56,139 bases of DNA from contig CAIRYW010000017.1 of NCBI GenBank assembly GCA_903882905.1, positions 1 through 56,139 of the forward strand. Reading direction: 5' to 3'. Made by a program: the position numbers and the translations under genes. This stretch comes from an uncultured bacterium (lineage in GTDB: Bacteria; Patescibacteriota; Minisyncoccia; Phycocordibacterales; CAIRYW01). The notes below the pieces were generated by a model. That model was given only the letters and a program-made list of their open reading frames with translations. It searched no databases and had not been told where the DNA came from. Positions 16,938 through 53,180 of the stretch are shown here, one piece after another. Each line of letters begins with the position of its first letter. Position 1 is the first letter of the stretch.

Positions 16938-17616
16938 GAGGATCTTCTTGAGTTATGAGTGCATAGGAAACAATTTCTTCATCATCAGCCATTAAATATG
17001 GCAACTGGTTATGAGTAAAGTTTACAATTTCTTGGGTTTTTTTATCTTTCCATTTATGAGCAATTTTCTTCATTAAAGCTTCTTCTTCAGAAGAGAGTGT
17101 CTGTATTTTTTCATTCTTATTACTTTCAGATTCACTAATAAGAAACATATCTTTCCCGTCATCATTTTTTCTTTCAATATTTATTTTTCCGTCTTCTTCA
17201 AGTTCATCTAGTGCTCGAAAAAAAGTATCAGGTACTGGACCGTAAGTAATCTTTCGATATTGCATTCCACTCATACTTTCAAGATGATCGTAGAACCAAG
17301 CAAAATCTGCTAAATAAAGTAATTTAGCAAGTTTTGTTTTTGTTATCTTTCCATCTTTTGAAATATTCATACGCAAATATTTCAAAATCATGTGTTTATA
17401 CTTTTCAATATTTGCAATACTACCAGATAAAAGTTCATCAATACCAATACCAAAAAGCTTTGTGAACTTTTGTGCTTCATCTAAATCAAGTTTTTGCTTC
17501 CCTGCCTCGATTGCAGTGTAAGTTGGACGTGAGACTCCTATAGCCTTTGCAACTTGTTCTTGACTTAATTTTTTTTGAATGCGTAACTCTTTTATTTTTT
17601 CTATATAATTGTTCAT
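16924..17616 (-). CDS. XRE-type HTH + Panacea (DUF4065) domain antitoxin
   Basis: HTH KIKELRIQKKLSQEQVAKAIGVSRPTYTAIEAGKQ; DUF4065 region KLAKLLYLADFAWFYDHLESMSGMQYRKITYGPVPDTFFRALDELEEDGKI. Start MNNYIEKIKEL at 17616. Confidence 0.85.
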   Translation of the reverse strand: MNNYIEKIKELRIQKKLSQEQVAKAIGVSRPTYTAIEAGKQKLDLDEAQKFTKLFGIGIDELLSGSIANIEKYKHMILKYLRMNISKDGKITKTKLAKLLYLADFAWFYDHLESMSGMQYRKITYGPVPDTFFRALDELEEDGKINIERKNDDGKDMFLISESESNKNEKIQTLSSEEEALMKKIAHKWKDKKTQEIVNFTHNQLPYLMADDEEIVSYALITQEDPHEVY

Positions 17617-17636
17617 ATGAACAATTATATAGAAAA
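17597..17636. promoter_or_regulatory. 40-bp perfect palindrome centred on antitoxin start codon (candidate autoregulatory operator)
   Basis: TTTTCTATATAATTGTTCAT|ATGAACAATTATATAGAAAA. Confidence 0.85.
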
Positions 17637-18017: not shown

Positions 18018-21000
18018 TTAGCTAATAATTTTATCAATTTCCCTCATTATTTTATCTGTTTCAGTAAGTGAAACTATTATTTGTTCGTACGTTTCAATCT
18101 CCATATTCGTTAGTTCTCTTCCTTTTCTGTCTTTCAAATATTTCTGAGCTGGCTGATATCCACCAATGTAAAAATTCCAAGCTATTTCAGGAACACCGCC
18201 AAAATATTGATCACTGTTAATATATACATTTTTATTACTGTAGGTTATTTTTTCTACTAAATTACTTCCCACAACTGAATAGGTCGTAATTGGTTTTTTT
18301 ACAATTGAATCTGTAAGTAAATGCAAATTACGAAGTTTTGTACCTAATGGTACAAGTTTCCAAAACGTTTCTTTTATTTCTGGAAATGGAACCCGAGGGA
18401 AATCAGTTTTGAGAAATTCTTTGTATTTTTCACGATAACTAGGAGAATACAAATATGCGTAAATGTAATCTAAAATATTCTCAGGTGTTGTCTCTCCAAC
18501 TATTTTATTTATCTCGTTCCAAATTTCTTTTTTAAGGTTTGAAATTTTTTCACCCTGTTGTGTATAAAAATAAAGTGGAAATGATGACCCAATTTCTGAA
18601 GTCTTATTTGAGACATAACTTGATTCAACCGTATTTCTATGAACTAAAACATGTCGAAATCCTTCAATTTTTTGTTGTCTACAAAGCATAATTCCAATAT
18701 TTTCTTTATTTAGGAAACATTGCATAACGTCCCAACGACCTCTTTCAATAAATTTTTTATCGTAGTAAACATATCGTATGTCAAAAGGACGGTAGTCTAT
18801 TTTAAAGACTTTGCTTTCTTCGTATTCAAAATTATGACTATTTGCATATGAAATAATGTTTGTTTTCAGATTTTCCTTATTTTCAGAAATTGCAACAGCA
18901 TCTCTACCTGTTACTATTCCCACACTTGAAATTTGGAATAAATCACTAACTGAAAAACCTTCATTGTACATATTCTTATTTACTCCCTCAGTCTTCCAAA
19001 TATCACAATCTTCAGGTAATTTTTTCCATTCCATATCATCCATATTTGAAGTGTCTAGAATTTGAAACTTATTTAAACGAGTTCCGTAAATATCACAAGA
19101 GTAAACTTCAGCAAGTTTCTTGTTGTTATTTTTTTGTGATTTTTTAACACCCAAAATTATTGAGACGCCAGACATAATATCAAAGACATTTTCGTCTTTT
19201 GTACCGTCTGGACTTATCTCTTTCTTTCTACTATTACCATGAAGATCGAGTACATATTTTGTCAAACGTATTTCGTAAATGCCATCTCATTCCTCTAAAA
19301 GTAGGGTTATCAATATATCCATGAGCTGTAATCATTCCTACAATTCCCTCTCCATTTTTTTCAATCAAACTTTCAGCAAAACGAATAAATTTAACGTAGT
19401 CATCATTAATCCATTTACTATTTCTCTCTTTTAATTTTTCTTTTCCTCCAATTTCCACCTTATACACATCATTATCTGTGTAATGAGGATTCATCGATTC
19501 ACCAGAATAAGGAGGATTACCTATCACCACCATAATCGGAAATTCTTTTTTTACTCTTGAGGCTTGTCTACTTTCTTCTGTAATACTATCTTGAAATCCA
19601 AAAAAACTATTTTGCTTTGAATAATCTGAAGCTTTATCTAAAGTGTTTGTTAAATATACACCCAGTCGCTCCTTAAGATTTTCAATGCCAGTATTTTCTA
19701 AAGTCATAGCAAGTTTTAGATGGGCTATTGTATATGAAGCCATCATAAGCTCAAAGCCGTGCAAACGTGGGACTAGGTCATTTTCAACATAAGATTTCCA
19801 AACACCTTCTCTACTCCCAAAAGATTTATAAATATGCTGTATCACCTCATTAAGAAATGTTCCAGTACCAGTTGCAACATCTAGTATTTGAACTTTGTGA
19901 TATTCTTTTTGGATTTTTTCTTCTTTTCCTTTACTATTTGTTTCTATTTTTTCCTGAGTAATTTTTTGATTATCCGCAAGCCCATTTTCAATACCAAAAT
20001 CATTCTTAAGAATAGAATCTACTGACCTCACAATAAACCGAACAACTGAAAGCGGAGTATAGAAAACACCCAATTCCATTTTCTTAACGGGATTATATTC
20101 AAGAAGGAAATCTTCATAGAAATGAATTACTGGATCAGGACCTTCGTGTGTTTTTCCAAACAAATCTTCAGTTTTAAAATATTCCTGCATTAAATCCTTA
20201 ACGTTAGCATGCGAAAAAACATCACAAAGCTCAGTAACTATTGTCTCTAGTCTTTTAGGGAAATTCACTCCAGCTATGTGATCAAAAAAATTTTGAAGAA
20301 AAGGGTTAGATGCCGGCACAAGTTCTCTTGCTTCCTGTCTTGTAAAATTTTTCGGTGTCTTATCGTTATATCTTGCAGCGAAAAGTCCATACACAAGTGT
20401 CTGAGCATACATATCAGCAAATTTTTCTATATCTATGTCTGCAATTAAATTTTCTTTTATGACCTGCATTATCTTTTTTAACTCTCCGTTTTCTGCCTTT
20501 TCTGAATTCAAAAAAGAAACAACATTATCCCGAATACGTTGAGCTCTTCCTCCCATTATTTTTGCAAGATGTTTCCCTGATTTAATTGGTTCCCGGCTTG
20601 AATGTGTAAAATCCAAAATTGTGCGGACTAACCTTTCCTTATTCTCAAGATTAAGATCAATACTTCTGTTTTTTAAATTTGGAGTACCAAGTGAAATAGA
20701 TTCATCGTATTTCTGTCCATTTCTATAAAATCTAAAAGAAAGGTAATCACTTATTATTAAATTAGTATAACCAAAATATCTAGTTGCTTGGGAGGATTTT
20801 TCTATTTTATCTAAATCCTCACCAACAGTTTTTACTTCAATATACAAAAGAGGTATCTCATTTTTAAGAATTATGAAATCTGGTTTGTTTCCACTAATGG
20901 CTTTTGGGTCATGTTGAATATGATATTTTTCTGATTTAGGGAAAAGAGTTTCCAAAAATTTCTGAAAACCTGTACGATATGACATTTCAGAACTAGTCTC

Positions 21001-21057
21001 ATCCTTAAAATAAGTAACTACGCTTTCTAGGTATTCAACTACATTTGAATTATCCAT
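18018..21057 (-). pseudogene. Type IIG/ISP-like restriction-modification enzyme, split by frameshift (ORFs 19234..21057 and 18018..19265)
   Basis: N-terminal PD-(D/E)xK-like region (KPDFIILKNEIPLLYIEVKT), SAM motif (DVATGTGTFLNE), NPPY motif (VIGNPPYSGESMN); reading switches frame at ...NTFDKI / YVLDLHGNSRKKE. Confidence 0.8.
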
Positions 21058-21077: not shown

Positions 21078-21842
21078 CTAACATATTGTATATTCACCTA
21101 CTTTTGTACGTTTTATCGAAAAAGCAAGAGATGGAACTCCGAGAATTTTTCCGAGCTCTTGCGCTAAGACGCGCATATAAGCTCCGCCAGTAGATAAAAC
21201 TTTTATAGAAATTACTTGATAATTTTCTTCAGCCTTTATTTTTTCATTCCATAAATCCAAAATTTCTTTTTGTCTAAAATCCCCAGTTACTTTTGCGATT
21301 CTATCTTGAATATTTTTTTGTAATTCTTCTCTACTAATTTCTCTTTGACTGAGAAATTCAATTTCGGTAATTTTTGCATTTGATTCGATTTCTTTTTCCT
21401 CTCCTTCCCTCGCCCACTGCCAAAGTGGTTTTCCTTCAAAAGTTTTTGAGGAGTAGGCGGGGTATTTTTGGGGGAGGGTTTTTAGTTGTTTAATTGCCGA
21501 TAAAAAACTCTCAGGAGCAAGGCCTCTCAAGAGGACGCCTTGCTCCTGAGAGTTTTTTGAGACAATTTTCACTTTTCCTAAGACATCTCCTGTATCTGTT
21601 TCAAAACCAAAAAGGACTTCGACTTCATATTCCTTCGAAAGGTACAAATAATCAGTTTTTAGCTTGCATTCCTCTCCTGCAAGGACCAAAAGTAGCCCTT
21701 CTGCCATCGGATCAAGTCTTCCTGCGTAGGTCAAAGGTAGGCCTTCATAGGCTGGATTTTCGGCTTTAAATCGGTTTAGGCATTCCAGTGGTGTTTCGCC
21801 AATTTCCTTGTAAAGTAATATTTTAGATTGTATTTGATTCAT
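21078..21842 (-). CDS. truB: tRNA pseudouridine(55) synthase with in-frame palindromic insert
   Basis: LTYAGRLDPMAEGLLLVLAGEECK, GAYMRVLAQELGKILGVPSLAFSIKRTKVGEY. Confidence 0.85.
   Translation of the reverse strand: MNQIQSKILLYKEIGETPLECLNRFKAENPAYEGLPLTYAGRLDPMAEGLLLVLAGEECKLKTDYLYLSKEYEVEVLFGFETDTGDVLGKVKIVSKNSQEQGVLLRGLAPESFLSAIKQLKTLPQKYPAYSSKTFEGKPLWQWAREGEEKEIESNAKITEIEFLSQREISREELQKNIQDRIAKVTGDFRQKEILDLWNEKIKAEENYQVISIKVLSTGGAYMRVLAQELGKILGVPSLAFSIKRTKVGEYTIC
21502..21558. repeat. Palindromic element within truB
   Basis: 22-bp perfect inverted repeat AAAAAACTCTCAGGAGCAAGGC / GCCTTGCTCCTGAGAGTTTTTT around a 13-nt centre. Confidence 0.9.
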
Positions 21843-40031: not shown

Positions 40032-40106
40032 TTGTCATTCCCGCGAAAGCGGGAATCTAGGGTTTTACTACATACATCTGGATTCCCGCTTTCGCGGGAA
40101 TGACAA
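40032..40106. repeat. REP/BIME-like palindromic repeat
   Basis: TTGTCATTCCCGCGAAAGCGGGAATC (40032-40057) / GATTCCCGCTTTCGCGGGAATGACAA (40081-40106), each arm itself a hairpin. Confidence 0.9.
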
Positions 40107-52003: not shown

Positions 52004-52039
52004 AAAACAGCCGAGGCGCTTAAGCGCCTCGGCTGTTTT
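52004..52039. terminator. Bidirectional intrinsic terminator (36-bp perfect palindrome)
   Basis: AAAACAGCCGAGGCGCTT|AAGCGCCTCGGCTGTTTT. Confidence 0.92.
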
Positions 52040-52040
52040 T

Positions 52041-53180
52041 TTAAATATCAATTTCTCCACTCTGAATTTGTTGTTTTAAATTTACATCAGAAATTGATGC
52101 CATGAAATCTAACATTTTTTGCTTTTCTATTCCGTCTGAAAAACTAGGAACTGAATCATTTATGACTACAGGAAGAATAGATATATTTTCTCCATTATTT
52201 GTCTTTGTAATTTGAAGAGCAATTGCATGGGTAGTTCCATAAGAAAAATTCTGATCAAAAACAAAATTACCTAAAGAATAAAAAATTGGTTTGTTATTAT
52301 AAATTTCAACGCCCTCTACAACATGCGGATGAGACCCAATAACCATATCTGCTCCACTATCAATCATCAATCTTCCGTTTTTTTTCTGTAAGTCGGTTGG
52401 GTAATCTTGATACTCAACTCCCCAATGTGGCATTACGATTACAAAATAATTCACATCTTTTAGTTCCTTTATTAAATCAAGAGTATGGTCAACCTTTCCA
52501 CCAAATTCATTCCAACCAATAAACGCTATTTTGAAACCATTTTCATTAAAAGTGGCAACCCTATCATCTTTATTAAAATAATCTCCAAAAGGCTGTATAT
52601 TTATGCTTTTCAAAAAATCATAAGATTGCCTTATTCCTTCAAGCCCAAAATCATTATTATGATTATTTGCCTGCGAGAGTGCATCAAAACCAACATTTTT
52701 CAAAATATTTAAAACGGAAGGATTGAAAGTAAATTGTAAAATTGTGTGATCTTGCGCTGAAATAGAATTAAAATTTGTTATAACGCCTTCAAGATTGGCA
52801 ACCGAAATATCAGAATTTTTTATTTGTTCTGTTGTAGAAGCAAAAATATAATTTTGTCCAAATTGATTAATTCTCAATCTCACCTGCCTATCAAGCATCA
52901 CATCACCTGCAACAAAGATACTGAGTTTATTTTCTGGAACTTGGATAGGAACAACAACTAGTTTTTCTTGAGCAGTATATTTTGGAAAAAAAATTACAAA
53001 TAATAAAAGTAAAGTAAAAATAGAAAGAAGTAATATTAATATTTTAGTTTTCACTTTCCTTATAATTTTTCTTGAGGAGAGACCTCCAAAAAAAGAGGAC
53101 TCACCTCTAAAAAATTTAGATATCCAATCTTGCCATTTTTGCGTTTGATTGGATGAAAGATTTTCTAGCTGGAACATCAT
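52041..53180 (-). CDS. CapA/PgsA-family (poly-gamma-glutamate synthesis-like) metallophosphatase
   Basis: FVAGDVMLDRQVRLRI, VANLEGVITNFNS, ALSQANNHNNDFGLEG, MPHWGVEYQDYPTDLQK, DMVIGSHPHVVEGVEIYNNKPIFYSLGNFVFD. Confidence 0.92.
   Translation of the reverse strand: MMFQLENLSSNQTQKWQDWISKFFRGESSFFGGLSSRKIIRKVKTKILILLLSIFTLLLLFVIFFPKYTAQEKLVVVPIQVPENKLSIFVAGDVMLDRQVRLRINQFGQNYIFASTTEQIKNSDISVANLEGVITNFNSISAQDHTILQFTFNPSVLNILKNVGFDALSQANNHNNDFGLEGIRQSYDFLKSINIQPFGDYFNKDDRVATFNENGFKIAFIGWNEFGGKVDHTLDLIKELKDVNYFVIVMPHWGVEYQDYPTDLQKKNGRLMIDSGADMVIGSHPHVVEGVEIYNNKPIFYSLGNFVFDQNFSYGTTHAIALQITKTNNGENISILPVVINDSVPSFSDGIEKQKMLDFMASISDVNLKQQIQSGEIDI

Follow-up and report, generated by a model that had tools for sequence, protein, structure and literature searches.

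A palindromic element in frame in truB of a Paceibacterota genome is probably a copy of a dispersed REP/REPIN-like repeat

Introduction

REPs have been described within ORFs and also in frame inside the TnpA_REP genes of subclass 2.4 (PMC3733652, PMC6006769). The truB genes of Stenotrophomonas maltophilia, Erythrobacter litoralis and Sphingopyxis alaskensis carry REPs, and that of Rickettsia conorii carries the Rickettsia palindromic element RPE-1 (PMC3733652). In the limited open-access literature on REPs and Parcubacteria, no description of such a family in CPR bacteria was found.

A palindrome in the truB frame of a member of the Paceibacterota (Parcubacteria, CPR), a bacterium with a highly reduced genome, was analysed here. 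The genome (G000) is of 746 kb in 29 contigs, and the window, the whole stretch of DNA analysed, is the 56,139 nt of contig 17.

Results

A perfect inverted repeat lies in the truB reading frame

The features of the gene and of its palindrome are as follows.

21078 to 21842, minus strand: truB (tRNA pseudouridine synthase B), 254 aa, frame intact, D44 of GRLDP invariant in alignments
21502 to 21558 (57 bp), minus strand: palindrome within the truB gene, with perfect arms of 22 bp, encoding residues 95-114 SKNSQEQGVLLRGLAPESFL
21523 to 21534, minus strand: apical core CCTCTTGAGAGG of the palindrome, exact at 10 genome sites
21502 to 21507, minus strand: terminator-like U6 of the 3' hairpin foot, pairing with A6 at 21553-21558

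The ORF was identified as TruB by Pfam (TruB_N, 4.7e-20), and the invariant GRLDP residues are intact. Sequence inspection and an inverted-repeat search confirmed the predicted 22-bp perfect inverted repeat in the truB frame: the arms (21502-21526 and 21534-21558) are 25 nt long and 96% complementary with one mismatch, the outer 22 bp being perfect. As RNA of the coding strand the hairpin has a dG of -43 kcal/mol (z -9.0), and none of 200 shuffles was equally stable. The longest perfect stem in truB (loop 3-20) is 22 bp, against a maximum of 11 bp in 300 codon shuffles. Thus the palindrome is real and far above the chance level. Downstream of truB, at 18018-21057 of the minus strand, two adjacent overlapping ORFs resemble a split type ISP / Eco57I-like restriction-modification gene, with N6_Mtase followed by Type_ISP_C.

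The truB palindrome belongs to a dispersed family with conserved pairing

The genome was searched with the 63-nt element and further copies were found. The best match, with 87% identity over 54 nt (E 3e-13), lies between uvrD and a divergent gene. The core CCTCTTGAGAGG has 10 exact sites in the genome and 15 with one mismatch, as compared to 1 for the backwards control. All but one of the core sites fold as long hairpins, which have the inner sequence in common while the outer stems differ yet stay complementary. Accordingly, the middle of the truB palindrome is not a plain loop but holds the conserved core of a repeat family, and its outer stem is locus-specific. The related hairpins of G000, about 26 in number, are united by one of two features, the core at the apex (TCCTCTTGAGAGG) or the sequence of the outer stem (ACTTGGAGG..CCTCCAAGT), and have the approximate consensus AACTTGGAGGTAAGTCCTCC-TCTTGA-GAGGTCTTTCCTCCAAGTT. 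A dispersed, multi-copy palindrome, as in REP/REPIN systems, is thus present in G000, and the outcome that would have counted against the original prediction, that no other copy exists, did not materialize.

A covariance model detected 26 loci in G000 at E <= 0.002, on many contigs, and no copies of the repeat in three other genomes of the host's taxonomic family, none of them of the same genus. Among 14 aligned copies, both sides were altered in 17 of 23 pairs, and covariation was 0.478 versus 0.186 +/- 0.023 in shuffled and at most 0.14 in slid alignments. These results show that the truB palindrome is a member of the family and that pairing is kept by compensatory changes. Rfam gave no match at the family copies examined, only a nearby tRNA. 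In this long form, the ACTTGGAGG-type outer stem is found in about half of the copies, together with two inner GGAGG-N5-CCTCC units; the two inverted repeat units are degenerate.

A short form of the repeat is associated with RAYT-like Y1 transposase genes

Searches were extended to 397 genomes of the order. The short palindrome ACTTGGAGG-N5-CCTCCAAGT, which has the same stem, was found in 39 of the 397, in a patchy distribution and often in several copies; its backwards control gave zero matches in the same set. It is clustered on the flanks of a Y1_Tnp (PF01797) gene, within which further copies are found in frame; G000 is one of the genomes concerned. Y1_Tnp is present in 37 of the 39 genomes with the exact short palindrome versus 207 of the 358 without it (p 1e-6, genome kinship ignored). 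The gene of G000 is the following.

C27:67285-67992: RAYT-like Y1 transposase gene, PF01797 over cut-off, NHFH at 100, candidate Tyr at 160

It thus has the Y1_Tnp domain, the HUH motif and a candidate for the catalytic Tyr of a RAYT; NCBIfam REP_Tyr_transpos matches it below the cut-off only. The short form flanks this gene, and the truB-type long form was not seen beside it. No family repeats adjoin the second Y1 transposase of G000 (contig C21). In genome G042, a long hairpin consists of two inverted copies of the core of the RAYT-gene REP, TTGGAAGCAAGGCTTCCAA, which is the arrangement of a REPIN. The tags GTAG, GTGG and CGTC were searched for at the feet of the short palindromes, and 4 matches of any tag in 174 feet were not above chance. 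Taken together, these data show that the short form is associated with transposase genes of the RAYT-like Y1 (HUH) kind.

Internal in-frame palindromes with stems of 9 or more were seen in 26 of the 30 nearest transposase homologues, as against 0.8 of 30 in codon shuffles. They lie mostly near codons 60 and 152, one before the HUH motif and one after, and are usually identical to the flanking copies, though the sequence varies between genomes. In the homologues L146-L175 they encode the peptide LGGxASK at two conserved positions. At the second site both length and peptide are similar in most homologues, and the idea that the internal REPs are recent insertions was therefore dropped; the site is ancient.

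The sequences around 87 short palindromes were also compared. The flanks prolong the stem by at least 3 bp past the motif in 41% of cases versus 5% with shuffled flanks. Either short palindromes enter hairpin tips or stems lengthen afterwards, and a part of this apex signal is not recent insertion, given how ancient the internal site in the transposase gene is. In G016 (L076) one palindrome is nested in the loop of another copy.

Copies lie just past stop codons or in frame, and termination does not unify them

The second family copy in the window is given below.

53059 to 53119, minus strand: family copy that begins at the gyrB stop codon and lies within the N-terminal portion of a PGA_cap ORF with an uncertain start codon

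For 22 of the 26 copies the distance to the 3' end of a gene is no more than 80 nt, and for most it is no more than 25 nt. The copy near uvrD overlaps just one short, probably spurious ORF. Copies in reading frames occur in truB, in purN and possibly at the start of the PGA_cap gene. The purN copy (residues about 69-89) is a clean in-frame insertion, with some 17-20 aa extra relative to two homologues. In-frame insertion in more than one gene, as in RPEs, is therefore seen for truB and purN, with PGA_cap uncertain. The preference for sites just past stop codons and the existence of in-frame copies are shown by these positions. The other copies in the genome and the purN insertion support the suggestion, made in the original prediction, of a CPR analogue of in-frame palindromic elements.

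It was also proposed there that the palindrome is an intrinsic-terminator look-alike. The stem does end in U6 on the coding strand; however, the U6 pairs with the A6 of the 5' foot, the feet are symmetric (A6...T6) so that both strands are alike, and the middle is occupied by the conserved core. If the element attenuated transcription inside the gene or terminated it in both directions, the GC-rich hairpin and its U6 would halt truB transcription when translation lags, and the family members would be terminators that share a conserved sequence at the apex. The hairpin stability, the location of 22 of 26 copies just downstream of genes and the strongly maintained pairing are consistent with this. 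However, a stem followed by a U-tract is not the rule, the U-rich foot being present in only 6 of the 26 copies, and a terminator role thus does not unify the family. Copies inside purN, and the short form inside RAYT genes, also argue against it, as does the fact that a terminator needs no conserved apical sequence. A trailing ribosome normally suppresses a terminator hairpin inside an ORF, which counts against attenuation as well. This explanation appears unlikely.

The TruB loop is rich in palindromes

The element is bordered on one side by the conserved strand DTGDVLGK and on the other by the helix preceding YPxYSSK. The length of this loop varies among relatives, from 27 to 69 residues in 87 genes with 30-35 in most, and is 39 residues in G000, a net gain of about 6 aa. 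The anticipated simple absence of the roughly 19 aa from relatives was thus not borne out; with a loop just about 6 aa longer, the truB element is not a clean 19-aa insertion. The relatives identified through TruB are Candidatus Nomurabacteria, Taylorbacteria and other Paceibacterota, which gives an approximate placement of the host. The single-sequence fold was poor (pLDDT 52), and an AlphaFold model from an alignment of 31 sequences was used instead. Its pLDDT is 90.6 overall and low only at residues 91-110 (61-68); residues 110-120 are modelled in the canonical helix.

Perfect stems of at least 12 bp were counted in truB across the order. There were 25 in 135 genes (20 of which had been chosen for long alignments, a mild bias), as compared to about 3 in other coding DNA totalling 144 kb, an enrichment of about tenfold. 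Eleven of the 25 lie in the same loop, which makes up 13.6% of residues (p 2e-4). Four of the order's truB palindromes are of the ACTTGG..CCAAGT type. In G002, of the same taxonomic family as G000, an unrelated 14-bp palindrome occupies a TruB loop of normal length, and the truB palindromes of G033 and G110 are in canonical residues. Not all truB palindromes are therefore simple insertions.

These observations, with the small net length change in G000, are in favour of formation in situ, under which selection or template switching makes the truB loop prone to palindromes, and the hairpin would have grown at its present site without insertion. Formation in situ alone does not give the match to dispersed copies (87% over 54 nt, and an exact 12-nt core), and as the full account of the G000 element it is improbable. 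A broader possibility, put forward tentatively, is that in-frame palindromes of different bacterial phyla repeatedly land, or arise, in one and the same surface loop of TruB. The CPR source might be an untagged REP system, in which the RAYT-like gene itself harbours the palindrome in frame at two places, and the tendency of palindromes to cap longer locus-specific hairpins would suggest tip insertion or later extension.

Other palindromes were noted. At 40032-40106 the window has an inverted repeat of 29 bp, TTGTCATTCCCGCGAAAGCGGGAATC, which is REP-like but differs from the truB palindrome; a sequence similar to it, ATTCCCGTCTTCACGGGAAT, is read in frame in this loop of TruB in G018 (L051). 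Loop-free perfect palindromes of the window are at 17597-17636 (20 bp arms) and 52004-52039 (18 bp arms). A truB match with 6 in-frame TGA codons (G219:C1:61535-62293) suggests TGA recoding or a misassigned contig.

A DNA uptake signal, with inverted pairs forming hairpins as in Neisseria, would account for the presence of ACTTGGAGG-N5-CCTCCAAGT, a short inverted motif, close to the ends of genes, but it was rejected as very unlikely, because CTTGGAGG as a single motif shows no enrichment in the window (2 versus 1.2 expected) and copies number tens, not hundreds. Chance or an assembly artefact is hardly conceivable and is refuted by the codon shuffles, which never exceeded 11 bp, and by the presence of the family on many contigs, the intact truB frame also speaking against it.

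Discussion

The truB palindrome most probably represents a dispersed repeat, REP/REPIN-like and non-autonomous, of which this copy came to sit in frame; two inverted GGAGG-N5-CCTCC units between ACTTGGAGG-type ends are its likely structure. We infer a REPIN-like origin of the long form from the coexistence of the ACTTGGAGG-type outer stem and the two inner units. The copies could have been spread by a RAYT-like Y1 transposase via single-stranded hairpin DNA, the enzyme that mobilises the long form being putative. The insertion in truB may be tolerated as the encoded residues would fall in a flexible surface loop with the frame kept, and the intergenic copies may be mostly neutral or serve as 3'-end hairpins.

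In-frame palindromic repeats and REP/RAYT-type systems are hereby extended to a highly reduced CPR lineage, and truB offers a case of miniature repeats turning into protein sequence. With Rickettsia, Stenotrophomonas, Erythrobacter and Sphingopyxis (PMC3733652) and now Paceibacterota, the reason why truB attracts palindromes becomes open to testing.

Among known systems, the resemblance to rickettsial elements proposed in the original prediction holds for the kind of element, a palindromic repeat in frame in functional genes. Unlike RPEs, most G000 copies are intergenic; a transposase association is not claimed for RPEs in the sources read, whereas the G000 short form has one. The nearest known kind is the RAYT-associated REP/REPIN (PMC3116915, PMC6006769, PMC3733652) rather than the RPEs proper. 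Both are short palindromes dispersed mostly after genes, with occasional in-frame copies in ORFs. As in those systems, a Y1 transposase gene is flanked by the same sequence in the case of the short form, and inverted pairs that form a larger hairpin are clear in G042 and degenerate in G000. The G000 family differs in its nearly symmetric repeats without the GT[AG]G or CGTC foot, in its reduced CPR host and in the putative nature of the mobiliser of its long form. With TnpA_REP subclass 2.4 (Bertels group 4; PMC6006769) it shares REPs that both flank the transposase gene and lie in frame inside it, while the CPR genes have two recurrent internal positions and palindromes without the GT[AG]G foot.
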